From an uncultured Bacteroidia bacterium (GTDB lineage Bacteria > Bacteroidota > Bacteroidia > Bacteroidales > ML635J-15), in the NCBI GenBank assembly GCA_902790405.1, contig CADARW010000005.1, positions 1 through 34,461 on the forward strand: DNA of 34,461 nt, in the 5' to 3' direction. Positions 24,816 through 33,536 of this stretch are shown piece after piece. A model generated the notes under the pieces. The model saw only the letters and a program-made list of their open reading frames with translations. It had not been told where the DNA came from and searched no databases. A program made the position numbers and the translations under genes. Every line of letters starts with the position of its first letter. Position 1 is the first letter of the stretch.

Positions 24816-24823
24816 CAAATGTA
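24816..24823 (-). promoter_or_regulatory. -7 element of the AAA+DUF4143 gene
   Basis: The minus strand reads TACATTTG, a perfect TAnnTTTG, 22 bp before the ATG at 24793. The -33 position (about 24844-24847, TTTA) falls inside the first copy of the direct repeat at 24836-24887. Confidence 0.55.
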
Positions 24824-24835
24824 TATATTTTTATG

Positions 24836-24887
24836 TTATAATGTAAAATTCTTATATTTTTTTTTGATTATAATGGAAAATTCTTAT
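24836..24887. repeat. 20-bp direct repeat, likely operator for the AAA+DUF4143 promoter
   Basis: TTATAATGTAAAATTCTTAT (24836-24855) and TTATAATGGAAAATTCTTAT (24868-24887) differ at one base and are 32 bp apart, about three helical turns. The first copy overlaps the -33 region, as expected for a repressor site. Confidence 0.55.
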
Positions 24888-25041
24888 GTTTTTGTATGTC
24901 TATATACCAGTCTGTTTTCGGATTTGTTGTATTAATAAATTGAATATTAGTGTTTTAGTCGGTTGAGTGCATTTTCTTACTTTATGATTTTGCACACTAA
25001 TCCGAAAAGCTTTATTTACCTTTTTCGGTAACCTAATTCCG

Positions 25042-25844: not shown

Positions 25845-25879
25845 GAAATTATGCAAATTATGATGTGAGAAAAAATGCT

Positions 25880-25887
25880 TACTTTTG
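25880..25887 (+). promoter_or_regulatory. -7 element of the MATE gene
   Basis: TACTTTTG matches TAnnTTTG perfectly and ends 8 bp before the ATG at 25896, so the transcript would be almost leaderless. It also means the upstream ATG at 25875 lies before the transcription start and is not used. Confidence 0.5.
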
Positions 25888-25895
25888 CATCTTGT

Positions 25896-27260
25896 ATGGA
25901 TAATGCGGAACGATTAGGAGTTGAGCGGATAAGCACTTTGCTTATGCGGTTGTCGTTGCCCTCGGTGTTGGGGATGCTCGCCATTACCATATATAATGTC
26001 GCCGATACAATTTTTGTGGGACAGGCGGTCGGCGTGGAGGCTATTGCCGGCTTGTCGGTTACTTTGCCGTTGATGCTCGTGATAAACAACACTTTCGGAC
26101 AGGCGGTAGGACTTGGCGGTGCATCAATCATTTAGCGCGCGCTAGGGGCAAGGAAACGCGATTTTGCCGAGCTTGTGCTTCAGAACTTGGTGTTTATGAT
26201 TCTGTGCCTCAATGTCTTGTTGTTCGGTTTGGTAATAGCTTTTTTGCCCCACCTGCTACGGATTTTCGGTGCCGACGATTCTATTTTGCCTTATTCGATT
26301 GAATATGCAACTTGGTGCCTGCCAGGAAGTTTCGCGATGAACATTTTCTTCGTTTTTATCAATGTTATCCGTGCCGAGGGGAATACAAAGTTTGCAATGT
26401 GGTGTCAGATACTGACAGCCGTAATCAACCTTGTGCTTGACCCGATTTTCATATTCATTTTTGATTGGGGCGTGAAAGGTGCGGCAATTGCGACTTCCAT
26501 TTCGCAGATTGTGAGCGCAGCACTTGGAGTATGGTATTTCCGCCAGAGCAAAAAAAGAGTGCTTTCCCTGTCGTACCGCGATTGTTTCCGACTGCCCGAA
26601 CTAAAGGTTGTCGGCGAAACCTTGGCTTTAGGTTCTGCTTCGTTCGGACGACAATTGGCGCATTCTTCTACTTCCATTGTGGTAAACAATGTATTGCTTT
26701 TTGTCGGAGGTTCGCTGTCGATTGCTGCCTACGGTATCATAAACCGCCTGACTATGTTCGTATTTATGCCGATTTTTGGTGTCAACCAAGGCTTTATGCC
26801 AATTGCGGGATATAATTATGGCGCCGAGAAATATGGTCGCGTCATCGGTTCGCTGAAGGCTGGAATTATCTTCTCAACAGTGATATGCGTTGTGGCGTTT
26901 GTCTTGTTCGAACTGATTCCGCATCCGCTTCTTGCAATGTTTACCGACGACAGCGAACTGGTGGAAATTGGAGCGAGAGGCCTGCGGATTTTTGTGCTTG
27001 CAATTCCGGTCGTGGGTTGCCAGGTGATAGGTTCTGGACTGTTTCAGGCGCTGGGCAAGGCAAAGCCGGCATTTTTCCTTTCCATAGCACGGCAGATGAT
27101 TTTCCTTATACCTTTAGTTATACTTTTGCCTCGCTATTGCTCTTCGTTTTGGGGCGACGATGCCATCTGGTATGCCTTCCCGATTGCCGATTTGCTTTCG
27201 ACGGTAATAACAATCTTTATGTCTCATAAATTAATTAAATCGTTGATACATACAAACTAA
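25896..27260 (+). pseudogene. MATE-family multidrug exporter interrupted by an in-frame TAG
   Basis: Read through, this is one 454-codon frame with a single TAG at 26133-26135 (codon 80). Before it: RLSLPSVLGMLAITIYNVAD and LGGASII. After it: RALGARKRDFAELVLQN, then membrane segments to the end, with ELKVVGETLALGSASFGRQL and the MATE second-half motif GVNQGFMPIAGYNYGAEKYG. The family normally has Ser at the stop position (SxIS-R-LG), and TCG to TAG is one base change, so this is a point nonsense mutation, or a sequencing error, in a Na+ or H+-coupled multidrug exporter with about 12 membrane helices. TAG is used as an ordinary stop by the FISUMP, cassette C and DUF58 genes, so recoding is unlikely. 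The rest of the frame is intact, implying recent damage. Confidence 0.85.
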
Positions 27261-28008: not shown

Positions 28009-28020
28009 GTATGATTCAAT

Positions 28021-28068
28021 GATTTAAAGATTTAAAGATTCAAAGATTCAAAGATTTGAAGATTTGAA
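28021..28068. repeat. Six tandem 8-bp units in identical pairs
   Basis: The units are GATTTAAA twice, GATTCAAA twice and GATTTGAA twice, without interruption, just after the DUF4294 terminator. They fill the gap before the DUF58 promoter. Confidence 0.85.
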
Positions 28069-28109: not shown

Positions 28110-28117
28110 TATTTTTG
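28110..28117 (+). promoter_or_regulatory. -7 element of the DUF58 gene
   Basis: TATTTTTG matches TAnnTTTG. The expected start is near 28124, 12 bp before the ATG at 28136. A TTG at 28115 in the same frame lies inside this box and cannot be the start. Confidence 0.5.
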
Positions 28118-28135
28118 TGCGCAAAACAAAAAACT

Positions 28136-29059
28136 ATGGATGCCAAAGATGTAAACCTTGAGCTGTTTCCGCAGTACGACAATCTTGAATTTCTTGCAAG
28201 TCAGGTTGTTGAGGGATTTATTACGGGTTTGCACAAGAGTCCGTTCCATGGTTTTTCGGTGGAGTTTGCCGAGCATAGGCTCTACAACAAGGGCGAAAGT
28301 ACCAAGCATATCGACTGGAAATTGTATGCGCGCACCGACAAGCTTTTTGTGAAGCGGTACGAGGAGGAGACCAACTTGCGTGGGCAGATAATAATTGACG
28401 TGTCGTCGTCGATGTTGTTCCCATACAAGGAAAAGCGCATGAACAAGCTTCAGTTTTCCATATATGCGGCTGCGTCGCTGGTTTATCTGCTTCACCGTCA
28501 GCGCGATGCTGTTGGCCTAACGCTTTTCGACGACGATGTGAGATTTCACCTCGATGCCAAGTCGTCGCAAGTGCATTTGTCGGTGATGTACAACGAGATG
28601 CGCAAGTTCTTGAGTCCCGAAAGCATTCAGTTGCAAAAGCGTACCGATACGGCAGGCACCTTGCATAAGATTGCCGAGATGATTCACAAGCGCTCGCTGG
28701 TGATATTGTTCAGCGATATGTTTATTGACGGCGATACAGAGGCTTTGTTCTCGGCATTGCAGCATCTGAAGTATAGTAAGCATGAGATAATTATTTTCCA
28801 TGTCATCGATCGCAAGATGGAGGAGGAGTTCGCATTTGCCAACCGTCCCTACAAGTTTGTCGACCTCGAGACTGGCACGACTATGATGCTTAATCCTGCC
28901 GAAGTGCGCGATGGCTATGTGAAGAAGGTTTCTGGTCTTGTATCGGAACTGAAATACAAGTGTGGGCTGTTTGGTATCGATTTCGTCGAAGCCGACATAA
29001 ATAAACCCGTCGATGAGGTTCTGAAGCCGTATTTGATAAAGAGGGCAAAGTTCTTTTAG
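28136..29059 (+). CDS. DUF58 domain protein (vWA-like)
   Basis: 307 aa from the ATG at 28136. The DUF58 signature is GESTKHIDWKLYARTDKLFV (residues 53-72) followed by KRYEEETN. A von Willebrand A-like fold follows, with the MIDAS motif DVSSS (Asp88, Ser90, Ser92). Later segments SLVILFSDMFIDGD and HEIIIFHVIDRKMEEEF are typical strands of the same domain. These proteins usually work with a MoxR AAA+ ATPase and Bat proteins in assembling or maintaining envelope or aerotolerance functions. No moxR or bat gene is adjacent here, so it stands alone with its own promoter. No signal peptide or membrane anchor is seen. The stop codon is immediately followed by a hairpin array. Confidence 0.86.
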   Translation: MDAKDVNLELFPQYDNLEFLASQVVEGFITGLHKSPFHGFSVEFAEHRLYNKGESTKHIDWKLYARTDKLFVKRYEEETNLRGQIIIDVSSSMLFPYKEKRMNKLQFSIYAAASLVYLLHRQRDAVGLTLFDDDVRFHLDAKSSQVHLSVMYNEMRKFLSPESIQLQKRTDTAGTLHKIAEMIHKRSLVILFSDMFIDGDTEALFSALQHLKYSKHEIIIFHVIDRKMEEEFAFANRPYKFVDLETGTTMMLNPAEVRDGYVKKVSGLVSELKYKCGLFGIDFVEADINKPVDEVLKPYLIKRAKFF

Positions 29060-29365
29060 GGCTAAAGCCGTTTCTATGTGCTTCGCACGTTTGAATGGCT
29101 TCGACGTTTCTATGTGCTTCGCACGTTTGAATGCTTCGCCGTTTCTATGGCTGACGCCGTTTCTATGTGCTTCGCACGTTTGAATGCCTGCGGCGTTTCT
29201 ATGGCTTCGCCGTTTCTATGGCTTCGCCGTTTCTATGTGCTTCGCACGTTTCTATGCCTTCGGCGTTTATATGTGCTTCGCAACGTTTGAATGGCTTCGC
29301 CGTTTCTCGTTTCTATGCCTGCAGCGTTTCTAGTTTCACGTTTCAATGGCTAAAGCCGTTTGAAG
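29060..29365. repeat. Array of about 16 micro-hairpins separated by GTTTCTAT/GTTTGAAT
   Basis: Immediately after the DUF58 stop, short palindromes of 8-12 nt alternate with an 8-nt spacer (GTTTCTAT or GTTTGAAT). The hairpin types are GTGC-TTC-GCAC (five exact or near copies), GGC-TTC-GCC, GCC-TTC-GGC, GCC-TGC-GGC, GGCT-AA-AGCC and GGC-TGAC-GCC. Stem bases differ between units but pairing is nearly always kept. The spacing is about 17-19 bp. The plus strand is largely open but composed of a few repeated codons, so I do not call it coding. Confidence 0.85.
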
Positions 29366-29383: not shown

Positions 29384-29413
29384 AAAAAAGAGCGGAATTT
29401 TTCCGCTCTTTTT
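29384..29413. terminator. Bidirectional terminator between DUF58 and the T9SS gene
   Basis: A-rich AAAAAGAGCGGAA pairs with TTCCGCTCTTTTT around a 3-nt loop. Runs of A and T on the two sides give a T-tract in both directions. It ends 18 bp beyond the stop of the minus-strand gene. Confidence 0.85.
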
Positions 29414-29431: not shown

Positions 29432-31336
29432 TTATCTTGCGATGTTGAGCTTCGAAGTAGCAACTTCACCGTTCTTAACGATTCTTACAACATAGTTGCC
29501 GTTAGCAACAGCTGAAAGGTCGATAGTGGTGTTTTCGTTTGCATTTTCAACGCGTGAAACAATCTGTCCCATCATGTTGAATACTTCGATAGTAGCGTTT
29601 TCAACATTGTTGAAGTTTACGATACCGCTTGTCGGGTTCGGGTACATTTCGATTTCGTTAGCAGTGAAAGAGTCAACAGCGCCACCCTGTGGAGGTTCCT
29701 GTTCACAAGTGTAGAATCTGATCATAAAATTTCCTTCTATGTCACTTATATAGTACCACTTGTCAATGTATGCAAGGTTTTCATAGGTGTTATGCTGTAC
29801 TGTTTCGTCGAATCCAACCTTGAATGACTTGTCGTTGTCCATTACAACTACTACGGCAATTATATCTGGAGAATTTTCGGTTACAGCCGGTTCGAAAATA
29901 TCTTCAGTGTACAATGTAACGAATCCGGGAGTGAAGTTTTCTCCAACTACATAAGAATCGGTTATTGCAATGGGGCTAGCCTCGAATCCATCGAAAAGTG
30001 TACCGCGAAGTATTTCGTAGTGGAATGATGCACCAGCTTCAGCTTCGCTAATGTATGCCTCGATAGCATTTACTTTATCTTCTGGATTGTATAGGTGATA
30101 CGTTGTAGCTATTTGCGTGAATCTGTCTGCGCTAGCTGTAATTGAATTAACGTATTGGCCGTTGTCTCTTGTATAGAGGCAATTGTCTGTTACTGTTGTG
30201 TAGTTGGTGTATGACATTGTTCTGTTGTTAGGGTTATCGTATGTCCCATTAGCAGGTTCCAAAGTAGCTACGAATCTGTATTCTCCATAATCTGTCATGT
30301 ATTGGTTGAATATAAATAGAGCTTCTTCAATCCATGTAATACGGTTATCATTGTCAACAGTGTAGTATTCGATAGTATCTCTACCAGGGACGAATATCCC
30401 ATTTTCATCAAATCCGGCTGCTGGTATGGTAACAGGTGCGTATTCGTAAGAGAATATTTCGTCATCTGAAGGACCGTATGCCTTGTGGGTCAATTTTACG
30501 TCTACTGGAGTTGTTCCGTAGTTTGAAACAACACCTTCGTACGCGCAGAATATACCAGCTACTTCTTCAGCAGGAAGGTTGCGATACATACCATGTAGTC
30601 CGTAGAATACGCTTTGTGCCGGATATGTCTGTACAAATGCGTCGCTGAGTTCGTAATCTAAAGAAGGTAATCCATCCACCGAGATGTTGTCGATTGCAAA
30701 CCAGCATGCAGCTCTTCCTACATATTGGAATGCAATTTTTACATCTATTCCAGTGTATGCAGAAAGGTCTATGTTTGCTTCAACCCATTGTTGCGATGCC
30801 CATTCTACAGCCTCGTAGTAGTCATCTTCGTTCCATATGTTGGTCCAGTTTTCACCAGCATCTGTTGAGACTTTCACGTTTAAATTGGCATTGTTGTTTG
30901 GATTTGCCATCCAATATGCGTTTGTATGGAAGTTAAATTTAAGTACGCCTCCTGTAGGTATTGTAAAAACTGGAGAAATAAGCCATTCGTCTTGAGGTCT
31001 GGTAATAGTATCGCTGGATGCAGAAGTTGCAGCCCTTTGGATAATCATATATGCGCCTCCATTGTTTATGCTACTAGCTCCTCCGCTTCTTCTGTACCAG
31101 TGCTGGTTGCCCTCGCTCTCAGCTCCACATATTGTGTCCCATCCTGTAGGAGGGAATGTGTTTTCTTCGAAGTCCTGTGTTAGAGCTGCATCCTTTGTAA
31201 AATTAGAATGATTTTTAATTGGTTCAACAACTGTTCGATAACTAGTGTTCCCAATCTTTGTTTCTGGTATAATGTTCTGCGAGAAAGCAAGAACTGTTAC
31301 CATAATTGCTAATGTTGTTAAGTAAAATCTTTTCAT
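29432..31336 (-). CDS. T9SS-secreted protein with choice-of-anchor-J-like domain (paralogue 1)
   Basis: 634 aa. A signal peptide (MKRFYLTTLAIMVTVLAFSQ) is followed by a domain of about residues 50-225 of the choice-of-anchor J/MAM-like type: FPPTGWDTI, DEWLISPVFTIPTGG, FNFHTNAYW, VKVSTDAGENWTNIW, and IAFQYVGRAACWFAIDNISV. The middle (about 230-555) is shared with the neighbouring paralogue and has no catalytic motif I recognise. The C-terminus is a type A T9SS sorting domain: MYPNPTSGIVNF, IEVFNMMGQIV, DLSAVANGNYVVRIV, ending TSKLNIAR. The protein should cross the outer membrane by T9SS and be attached to the surface or released. Likely roles are adhesion or ligand binding. It lies 268 bp downstream of the paralogue, on its own promoter. 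Confidence 0.88.
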   Translation of the reverse strand: MKRFYLTTLAIMVTVLAFSQNIIPETKIGNTSYRTVVEPIKNHSNFTKDAALTQDFEENTFPPTGWDTICGAESEGNQHWYRRSGGASSINNGGAYMIIQRAATSASSDTITRPQDEWLISPVFTIPTGGVLKFNFHTNAYWMANPNNNANLNVKVSTDAGENWTNIWNEDDYYEAVEWASQQWVEANIDLSAYTGIDVKIAFQYVGRAACWFAIDNISVDGLPSLDYELSDAFVQTYPAQSVFYGLHGMYRNLPAEEVAGIFCAYEGVVSNYGTTPVDVKLTHKAYGPSDDEIFSYEYAPVTIPAAGFDENGIFVPGRDTIEYYTVDNDNRITWIEEALFIFNQYMTDYGEYRFVATLEPANGTYDNPNNRTMSYTNYTTVTDNCLYTRDNGQYVNSITASADRFTQIATTYHLYNPEDKVNAIEAYISEAEAGASFHYEILRGTLFDGFEASPIAITDSYVVGENFTPGFVTLYTEDIFEPAVTENSPDIIAVVVVMDNDKSFKVGFDETVQHNTYENLAYIDKWYYISDIEGNFMIRFYTCEQEPPQGGAVDSFTANEIEMYPNPTSGIVNFNNVENATIEVFNMMGQIVSRVENANENTTIDLSAVANGNYVVRIVKNGEVATSKLNIAR

Positions 31337-31361
31337 TTCAATTAAAATTTAAATTATGTTT

Positions 31362-31369
31362 CAAAATTA
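31362..31369 (-). promoter_or_regulatory. -7 element of T9SS paralogue 1
   Basis: The minus strand reads TAATTTTG, a perfect TAnnTTTG, 25 bp before the ATG. A weak -33 match lies 19 bp upstream (31392-31389). Confidence 0.5.
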
Positions 31370-31555
31370 TAAAATAATTTTTTAATATCATAAAAAAAAC
31401 AAAAATATTTACAGTATAGGAAATGCATTGCTTCACCGTTTTAATGCAGAAATTTGCGGCTATTTAATTGATGAGATTTTTTTTTGATAGAGATGTTGTG
31501 TGCCGAGAATTAACTTTTTCCTATTTTACAACGACCTGTATTGATTTGCATAAAT

Positions 31556-31586
31556 AAAAAAAGGCGGATGAAAATCCGCCTTTTTT
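31556..31586 (-). terminator. Rho-independent terminator of T9SS paralogue 2
   Basis: AAGGCGGAT (31561-31569) pairs with ATCCGCCTT (31574-31582) around a GAAA loop, flanked by A- and T-runs that give a T-tract on the minus strand. It is 18 bp beyond the stop. Confidence 0.85.
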
Positions 31587-31604
31587 GTATTTCGCTTTGA
31601 TAGA

Positions 31605-33536
31605 TTATCTAGCGATGTTGAGCTTCGAAGTAGCAACTTCACCGTTCTTAACGATTCTTACAACGTAGTTGCCGTTAGCAACGGTTGAAAGGTCGATAGT
31701 GGTGTTTTCGTTTGCATTTTCAACGCGTGAAACAACCTGTCCCATCATGTTGAATACTTCGATAGTAGCGTTTTCAACGTTGTTGAAGTTAACGATACCA
31801 GTTGTTGGATTCGGGTACATAGCGATTTCGTTAGCAGTGAAAGAGTCAACAGCACCACCCTGTGGAGGTTCCTGTTCGCAAGTGTAAAGTCTAATCATGT
31901 AGCTTCCGTTTATATCGCCAATATAGTACCACTTGTCAATGAATCCAAGGTTTTCGTAAGTGTTATGCTGTACAGTTCCATCGTATCCAATCTTGAATGA
32001 CTTTTCGTTGTCCATTACAACTGCTACAGCAATTATATCTGGAGAATTTTCGGTAACAGACGGTTCGAAAATGTCTTCAGTGTATAATGTAATGAATCCG
32101 GGAGTGAAGTTTTCACCAACTACATACGAATCGGTAATTGCAATGGGGTTAGCCTCGAATCCATCGAAAAGTGTACCGCGAAGTATTTCGTAGTGGAATG
32201 ATGCACCTACTTCGGCTTCGCTAATGTATGCCTCGATAGCATTTACTCTATCTTCGGGATTGTAGAGGTGATACGTTGTTGCTATTTGTGTGAATCTGCT
32301 TGAGCTTGCAGTAATCGAATTTGATAATTGTCCGTTGTCTCTTGAGAAGAGGCAGTTATTAGTAACTGTGGTGTAGTTTGTGTATGACAAAGTTCTGTTG
32401 TTGGGGTTGTCATATGTTCCGTTAGCTGGTTCCAAAGTAGCTACGAATCTGTATTCTCCGTAATCTGTCATGTATTGGTTGAATAAGAATAGAGCTTCTT
32501 CAATCCATGTAATATGGTTTTCTTCGTCAACAGTGTAGTATTGGATAGTATCTCGACCTAGGGTGAATACTCCGTTTTCATCAAATCCGGCTGCTGGTAT
32601 GGTAACAGGTGCGTATTCGTAAGAGAATATTTCGTCATCTGAAGGTCCGTATGCCTTGTGAGTAAGTTTAACTTCAACAGGAGCTGTACCATAGTTAGTA
32701 ACAACACCTTCGTATGCGCAGAAAATACCAGCTACTTCTTCAGCAGGCAGGTTGCGGTACATACCGTGTCCTCTATACATTACGCTCATTGCAGGATATG
32801 TTTGTACGAATGCGTCGCTAAGTTCAAAATCTACAGAGGTAATTGAAGATACAGAAATGTTGTCAAGGAATAACCAGCAAGCATCCTCTGCTTCATATTG
32901 GAAAGCTAATTTTACCTCTATTCCATTGTATGCAGAAAGGTCAACTGTAACTGTATTCCACTCTCCAGTTTCCAAGGTGCCAGCATCATATGCATCGTCT
33001 TCGTTCCATATCGATGTCCAGTTTGCCCCGTTATCTGTAGAAATTTTTACTCTAAAACTGCCATAGTCTCCATCACCCGGTTCAATGTATGCTCCATCTG
33101 TCCAGTAGCGGAAAAGGGTGTATATGTCGAAATTTAATGCTCCGTTAGCCGGAATTGTTATTTGTGGAGTGATAAGCCAATCGTTTTGTTGGATGCCAGG
33201 TCCTCCATAATTAATAAATGCATATTGGCCAGGGAATTGAGTGCCGTTGCTACCCATCGTGAGGTTTTCTTGTCTTGACCAATGATGAGATGCATTGGTA
33301 CTTGCGCTACAAATGGTATCCCATCCTGTAGGAGGAAAGGTTGTGTTAGTAAAGTCTTCTGAAAGAACAGCGTCTTTAGTCATAGAAGTATGTCTCTTCT
33401 GTGGTGTAAAGTTAATGTACCCGTCCTTAGTATATTGTGCATTGTTTTCAGCACGATAACTGATAGTCGGATTTGCCTGTGCAAATGCGAATGTTGCAGC
33501 AAGCAATGCAATACCTAATAAATAAAGTTTTTTCAT
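31605..33536 (-). CDS. T9SS-secreted protein with choice-of-anchor-J-like domain (paralogue 2)
   Basis: 643 aa with the same architecture as its neighbour: signal peptide (MKKLYLLGIALLAATFAFAQ), anchor-J-like domain at about residues 55-235 (FPPTGWDTI, NDWLITPQITIPANG, VKISTDNGANWTSIW, LAFQYEAEDACWLFLDNISV), a shared middle region, and a T9SS type A C-terminus (MYPNPTTGIVNF ... TSKLNIAR). From about residue 235 (SDAFVQTYPA) to the end the two proteins are nearly identical, while the first 230 residues agree only in motifs. This suggests a common delivery and stalk region carrying different binding heads. It has a good promoter 28 bp upstream and its own terminator. No enzymatic motif was seen. 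Confidence 0.88.
   Translation of the reverse strand: MKKLYLLGIALLAATFAFAQANPTISYRAENNAQYTKDGYINFTPQKRHTSMTKDAVLSEDFTNTTFPPTGWDTICSASTNASHHWSRQENLTMGSNGTQFPGQYAFINYGGPGIQQNDWLITPQITIPANGALNFDIYTLFRYWTDGAYIEPGDGDYGSFRVKISTDNGANWTSIWNEDDAYDAGTLETGEWNTVTVDLSAYNGIEVKLAFQYEAEDACWLFLDNISVSSITSVDFELSDAFVQTYPAMSVMYRGHGMYRNLPAEEVAGIFCAYEGVVTNYGTAPVEVKLTHKAYGPSDDEIFSYEYAPVTIPAAGFDENGVFTLGRDTIQYYTVDEENHITWIEEALFLFNQYMTDYGEYRFVATLEPANGTYDNPNNRTLSYTNYTTVTNNCLFSRDNGQLSNSITASSSRFTQIATTYHLYNPEDRVNAIEAYISEAEVGASFHYEILRGTLFDGFEANPIAITDSYVVGENFTPGFITLYTEDIFEPSVTENSPDIIAVAVVMDNEKSFKIGYDGTVQHNTYENLGFIDKWYYIGDINGSYMIRLYTCEQEPPQGGAVDSFTANEIAMYPNPTTGIVNFNNVENATIEVFNMMGQVVSRVENANENTTIDLSTVANGNYVVRIVKNGEVATSKLNIAR

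Follow-up and report, generated by a model that had tools for sequence, protein, structure and literature searches.

The stretch analysed here, referred to as the window, comprises 34,461 nucleotides from an uncultured Bacteroidia bacterium. An open reading frame encoding a DUF58/VWA protein (28115–29059, plus strand; Pfam PF01882, E 6e-37), with orthologues of 91–99% identity in its subclade, ends in a TAG stop codon that directly abuts an array of short hairpin words (29060 to about 29369, plus strand). A bidirectional intrinsic terminator (29385–29413), conserved in the sister genome G015, closes the 3' region and is followed by a convergent gene on the minus strand whose product carries a secretion-system C-terminal sorting domain (29432–31336; Pfam PF18962, E 4e-13). 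As the first-pass annotation had stated, the array begins with the nucleotide that follows the DUF58 stop, ends just ahead of the terminator, and is placed as a 3' untranslated region (UTR) would be. The convergent gene belongs to a pair of adjoining, closely similar paralogues (29432–33536), apparently a recent duplication, in which the first has the secretion sorting tail recognized by Pfam. Tandem Repeats Finder (TRF) also reports an 8-bp GATTTAAA repeat upstream of the DUF58 gene (28013–28065) and a 32-bp AT-rich repeat (24822–24904). The frame at 25875–27260, presumably that of a MATE-like transporter as named from its sequence, has one in-frame stop after 86 residues and is open onward to 27260; it may be a pseudogene, a sequencing error, or a case of recoding.

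The array contains 16 hairpin words, in keeping with the approximate number claimed originally, of which 14 are intact or nearly so and two are broken (GGCTTCGAC near 29097 and GCCTGCAGC near 29316). The first word, GGCTAAAGCC (29060–29069, plus strand), occurs twice, GTGCTTCGCAC five times (once with an extra A in the 3' arm), and GGCTTCGCC three times; the others include GCCTGCGGC, GCCTTCGGC, GGCTGACGCC, and one short GCTTCGC. A typical unit, GTGC-TTC-GCAC (29078–29088, plus strand), reads GCGAAGC on the complementary strand. The joiners follow GTTT(CTAT/GAAT/CAAT) and are mostly 7–9 nt long, predominantly the 8-mers GTTTCTAT, GTTTGAAT, and GTTTCAAT. The regular short period described earlier stands, and its range of 17–19 widens to spacings mostly of 16–19 with a few insertions. 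TRF detects the array at 29060–29307 with periods of 17, 36, 53, and 89 and scores of 223–295. Folded as RNA, the stretch is more stable than its shuffled versions (z −6.1). No Rfam family matches the array at its gathering score, and the weak matches overlap the terminator.

The array is no curiosity of one locus. A search of the genome and its relatives, which the first-pass annotation had proposed, places it in a dispersed family. Pattern matches and fetched stretches give 71 copies of CGTTTCTATG and 57 of CGTTTGAATG in this 2.75-Mb genome, mostly clustered into arrays; control words obtained by reversal without complementation have 20 and 14 copies, respectively. There are dozens of mini-hairpin arrays in the genome, and the arrays of one genome have their linkers in common. 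Of 41 genomes searched, 14 contain the linker-hairpin-linker pattern: 13 belong to one subclade of ruminant Bacteroidia, all 13 species of which carry arrays and have a DUF58 protein at least 91% identical to that of the window, and the remaining genome has a single match. Congeners with DUF58 identity of 75% or less have no arrays, and a survey of 393 genomes of the order turned up at most one chance match in any other lineage. The named records that bear the pattern come from metagenome assemblies of ruminant Bacteroidia. Viral contigs, plasmids, and phages gave no match to the window's pattern or array, and carriage on viruses or plasmids is rejected on this ground. The ends of several arrays (L021, L023, L040, and L050) often adjoin palindromic repeats of other kinds, for example GAGACGCAATGAATTGCGCCTGTACAA and CTGTCCCGTTAGGGACAATG.

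Comparison of orthologous sites shows that array presence is polymorphic and that the interior evolves rapidly. At the DUF58 site, four of the subclade's 13 species carry an array, each with GGCTAAAGCC or GGCAAAGCC as its first hairpin. Both array ends are common to the window's genome and its 99%-identical sister G015, but the interiors differ, with a 48-bp block repeated, and G015 has about 11 words rather than 16, which bears out the variation in unit number that had been suggested for checking. Two more species carry different arrays at this site. Where the array is missing, another gene lies directly next in four species, and G012 has a plain spacer and then a terminator after the stop. 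Further orthologous sites display the same pattern, with ends that persist and an interior that turns over.

The rules by which the units are built are narrower than those first proposed. One-letter arms pair in 425 of 448 cases across the clade, whereas 1000 shuffles give a mean of 220 and a maximum of 253; arm complementarity is genuine pairing. The covariation inferred from the window is real in this sense, but the arms fall into only about five types (G/C, C/G, GG/CC, TG/CA, and none) around a constant core, CTNCG, so independent compensatory events are few. The central loop base in the window's clade is T in 264 units, G in 157, A in 130, and C in one (1/552), as compared with 13% C in background CTNCG words. 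About 523 of the 679 loops with three bases fit TNC; among loops of four bases within GGC-GCC stems, the main ones are TGAC, TAAA, TTAC, TAAC, and TGGC, and most fit TNNC. On the complementary strand most cores read CGNAG or CGNNAG, and these loops, TAAA excepted, turn into GNA or GNNA loops with a closing C-G pair. Hairpins with GNA or GNNA loops and at least two G-C pairs are extraordinarily stable, nuclease-resistant DNA structures (PMC4686876), and GCGAAGC melts near 78 °C (PMC4686876; PMC6479982). By sequence, the array units have such loops on stems of two or more G-C pairs, apart from those with TAAA loops. In the window's clade, GCC-type hairpins rarely follow one another (seven successions seen, about 43 expected), an avoidance that is absent from the second lineage described below.

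The arrays are oriented with respect to genes. With gene calls from a simple longest-ORF rule, 43 of 64 arrays start within 60 nt past the stop codon of a sense 5' neighbor, and six of 56 end within 60 nt of the stop of an opposite-strand 3' neighbor (Fisher p 2e-10). Counted per gene, 60 of 80 first units in sense are no more than 40 nt from the stop, versus five of 59 in antisense, and start codons are avoided. This polarity is not an artifact of gene ends drifting into repeats, because only two ORFs in 45 inspected rows run into an array before stopping. About 40% of arrays do not lie directly behind a sense gene, and many are upstream of genes or antisense. The motif TTCTA, suggested as a target by the DUF58 site, fails at other sites.

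Look-alike arrays occur elsewhere in Bacteroidota with different linkers. When 395 genomes of the phylum were searched for the structure alone, with the linker left free, a genome of another class (G549) stood out. In it, the same hairpin words are joined by GTGNGRGAC at spacings mostly of 14–18. Within its family, distant from the window's clade, arrays are found only in G549 and G808 among 23 genomes. The loop center in this second lineage is again almost devoid of C (T 269, G 88, A 21, C 0; 0/378), and a sense stop immediately precedes 10 of 14 arrays, versus one of nine for antisense (p 0.009). Viral sequences contain five single matches to the second lineage's pattern, and the three that were inspected (L365–L367) resemble ordinary coding DNA. 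A class-wide search added four lineages with other linkers, G1029 (GTTATTTT), G684 (GTTTATTTG and similar), G904 (TGTAAGATC), and G780; the stems of G904 have two pairs only, and G780 allows some C at the loop center, the one exception among the array lineages. With few loci in each, and with a backward control pattern that matched some genomes too, these four are leads rather than proof. The look-alikes may be convergent, ancient, or transferred.

Several known systems resemble the arrays in part. The REP and BIME elements of enterobacteria and pseudomonads likewise consist of short palindromes that form mosaic arrays at many loci of intergenic DNA, part of which is transcribed, and often near stop codons; the arrays described here share their character as multi-locus extragenic palindromes close to stops. 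Unlike these elements, the arrays have 16–19-bp units with 2–5-bp stems in direct tandem orientation, their linker is conserved and their hairpin variable, and they show no link to a REP-associated Y1 transposase (RAYT). The unit and linker tables contain no 20–40-bp palindrome with the terminal GTAG or CGTC tag that defines REPs (PMC3733652), and none of 40 RAYT-like loci is flanked by the repeats. Like minisatellites and VNTRs, the arrays consist of tandem units with preserved ends and copy-number turnover, including variation between close relatives; they differ in that their units are palindromic, keep a fixed orientation to the upstream gene, and share one linker across dozens of loci. 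The STRR repeats of cyanobacteria are also short tandem repeats in intergenic DNA, but they are heptamers and are not known to have alternating hairpins or stop-codon polarity. Closest in sequence are the d(GCGAAGC)-type mini-hairpins, since the complementary strand of the units holds this motif or its CCGNAGG variant. These hairpins are known from chemistry and aptamer design, and no report of genomic arrays of them was found. The original impression that no named element is like the array agrees with Rfam and with the literature, in which no description of such arrays was found; given incomplete coverage of subscription papers, novelty is provisional.

The reading we prefer, at a probability of about 0.5, is that these are dispersed, fast-turnover tandem arrays whose unit combines a putative extra-stable DNA mini-hairpin with a lineage-specific linker, and which may be tolerated or used in 3' UTRs in the manner of REP and BIME elements. 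Units would be gained and lost as single-stranded DNA folds into hairpins during replication or repair, and some process would copy units between loci, which could account for the single linker of each genome. Arrays that come to lie in sense behind a stop would become part of a 3' UTR and survive best there, perhaps because no other position leaves them harmless or makes them mildly useful, a situation that would parallel that of E. coli REP and BIME elements near stop codons.

The loop rule, the two-pair stems, and the minisatellite-like turnover form the basis for a DNA hairpin. The initial description of a hairpin array holds in that the mini-hairpins are genuine, but the sequence rules point to DNA hairpins and not clearly to RNA. 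Single-mismatch stems show no preference for G-U in the sense RNA (five would-be G-U pairs versus 16 of the opposite kind, with distinct variants about even, in a test with small counts), and for this reason we favor DNA mini-hairpins as the probable driver of expansion, while the transcript would determine the places at which arrays are tolerated. The two-pair stems of G904 would be too weak for RNA but sufficient for a DNA mini-hairpin.

Several observations oppose this DNA-based reading. A mechanism acting purely on DNA does not predict the sense polarity at stop codons, which is a signature more like that of an RNA. The stability of GNA loops, listed for all four N (PMC4686876), leaves the exclusion of C at the loop center unexplained. 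The arrays that are not directly behind a sense gene also count against it, as does the lack of excess folding stability on the complementary DNA strand (z −0.08), a value obtained with ViennaRNA DNA parameters that lack special loop terms and cannot rank GNA loops. Finally, no copying enzyme was found.

A functional 3' UTR RNA is the rival that survives best, although we consider it unlikely. Hairpins behind the stop could slow 3'-5' decay, block Rho access, or stall the terminating ribosome, and E. coli offers a precedent in REPs within 15 nt of the stop codon, which reduce translation (PMC12306157). The sense placement, with the first hairpin 0–19 nt from the stop in 48 of 80 cases, suits such a role, as do the terminator behind the array and its favorable RNA fold. 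Conserved function is harder to reconcile with an array present in four of 13 species at the DUF58 site, with stems of two or three pairs that would be weak as RNA and tolerate no wobble in sense, and with the many arrays that are upstream of genes or antisense.

A second rival treats the linker as the word recognized by a lineage-specific DNA- or RNA-binding protein and the hairpin as a spacer between binding sites. Linkers are uniform within a genome and differ between lineages, and T occupies linker position 8 in 229 of 241 cases although C would pair better; both observations favor this view. Unit number and order are not kept between sister species, no candidate protein was identified, and we regard such binding-site clusters as improbable.

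Mobilization of REP elements by a RAYT is very improbable and largely refuted. RAYT-like genes are common in the subclade, but array-free congeners also have them, and the units carry no GTAG or CGTC tag. The 40 RAYT-like loci retrieved with about 1.5 kb of flank have no array unit nearby, and the first 20 Y1 loci have hardly any. Among the 23 family members of the second lineage, a RAYT is missing from both array carriers but present in 17 of the 21 others. RAYT-like proteins at L212, L213, and L215 contain the peptide GAGFKPAPT or GAGLKPAPT, which we take to be translated repeat DNA and which may point to a palindrome family of the RAYTs' own.

An assembly artifact or a coding repeat can be set aside with considerable confidence: repeats are hard to assemble and these are draft metagenome assemblies, but arrays recur in 13 species from separate assemblies, one with a 1.39-Mb contig, and a period of 17 breaks any frame in DNA that is intergenic. 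A degenerate CRISPR array, already rejected in the first-pass annotation and presumably suggested only by 8-nt linkers that resemble CRISPR repeat ends (on the other strand ATTGAAAC, ATTCAAAC, and ATAGAAAC), is scarcely credible and is refuted by the 16–19-nt period and by the absence of Cas1, which does not track the arrays, from array-bearing G013, G015, G022, and G002; there are no spacers of the kind that, with regular repeats and cas genes, define such an array, and other lineages use unrelated linkers.

More tentative than the preferred reading is its extension to the look-alikes, which we put forward with some doubt: stop-anchored mini-hairpin arrays may be a recurrent class in Bacteroidota that arose several times, with linkers that differ and with words, loop rule, and polarity in common, made and spread by an undescribed hairpin-recognizing copying process at gene 3' ends. 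If this is true, the small DNA hairpin known to chemists for its extraordinary stability would be a natural building block of genomes that expands at gene ends, and REP-like DNA would be able to spread without a RAYT. The same rules of expansion would operate in separate lineages, providing a testable system for hairpin-driven repeat expansion, and annotation would have missed a new class of element sited where translation and transcription end.
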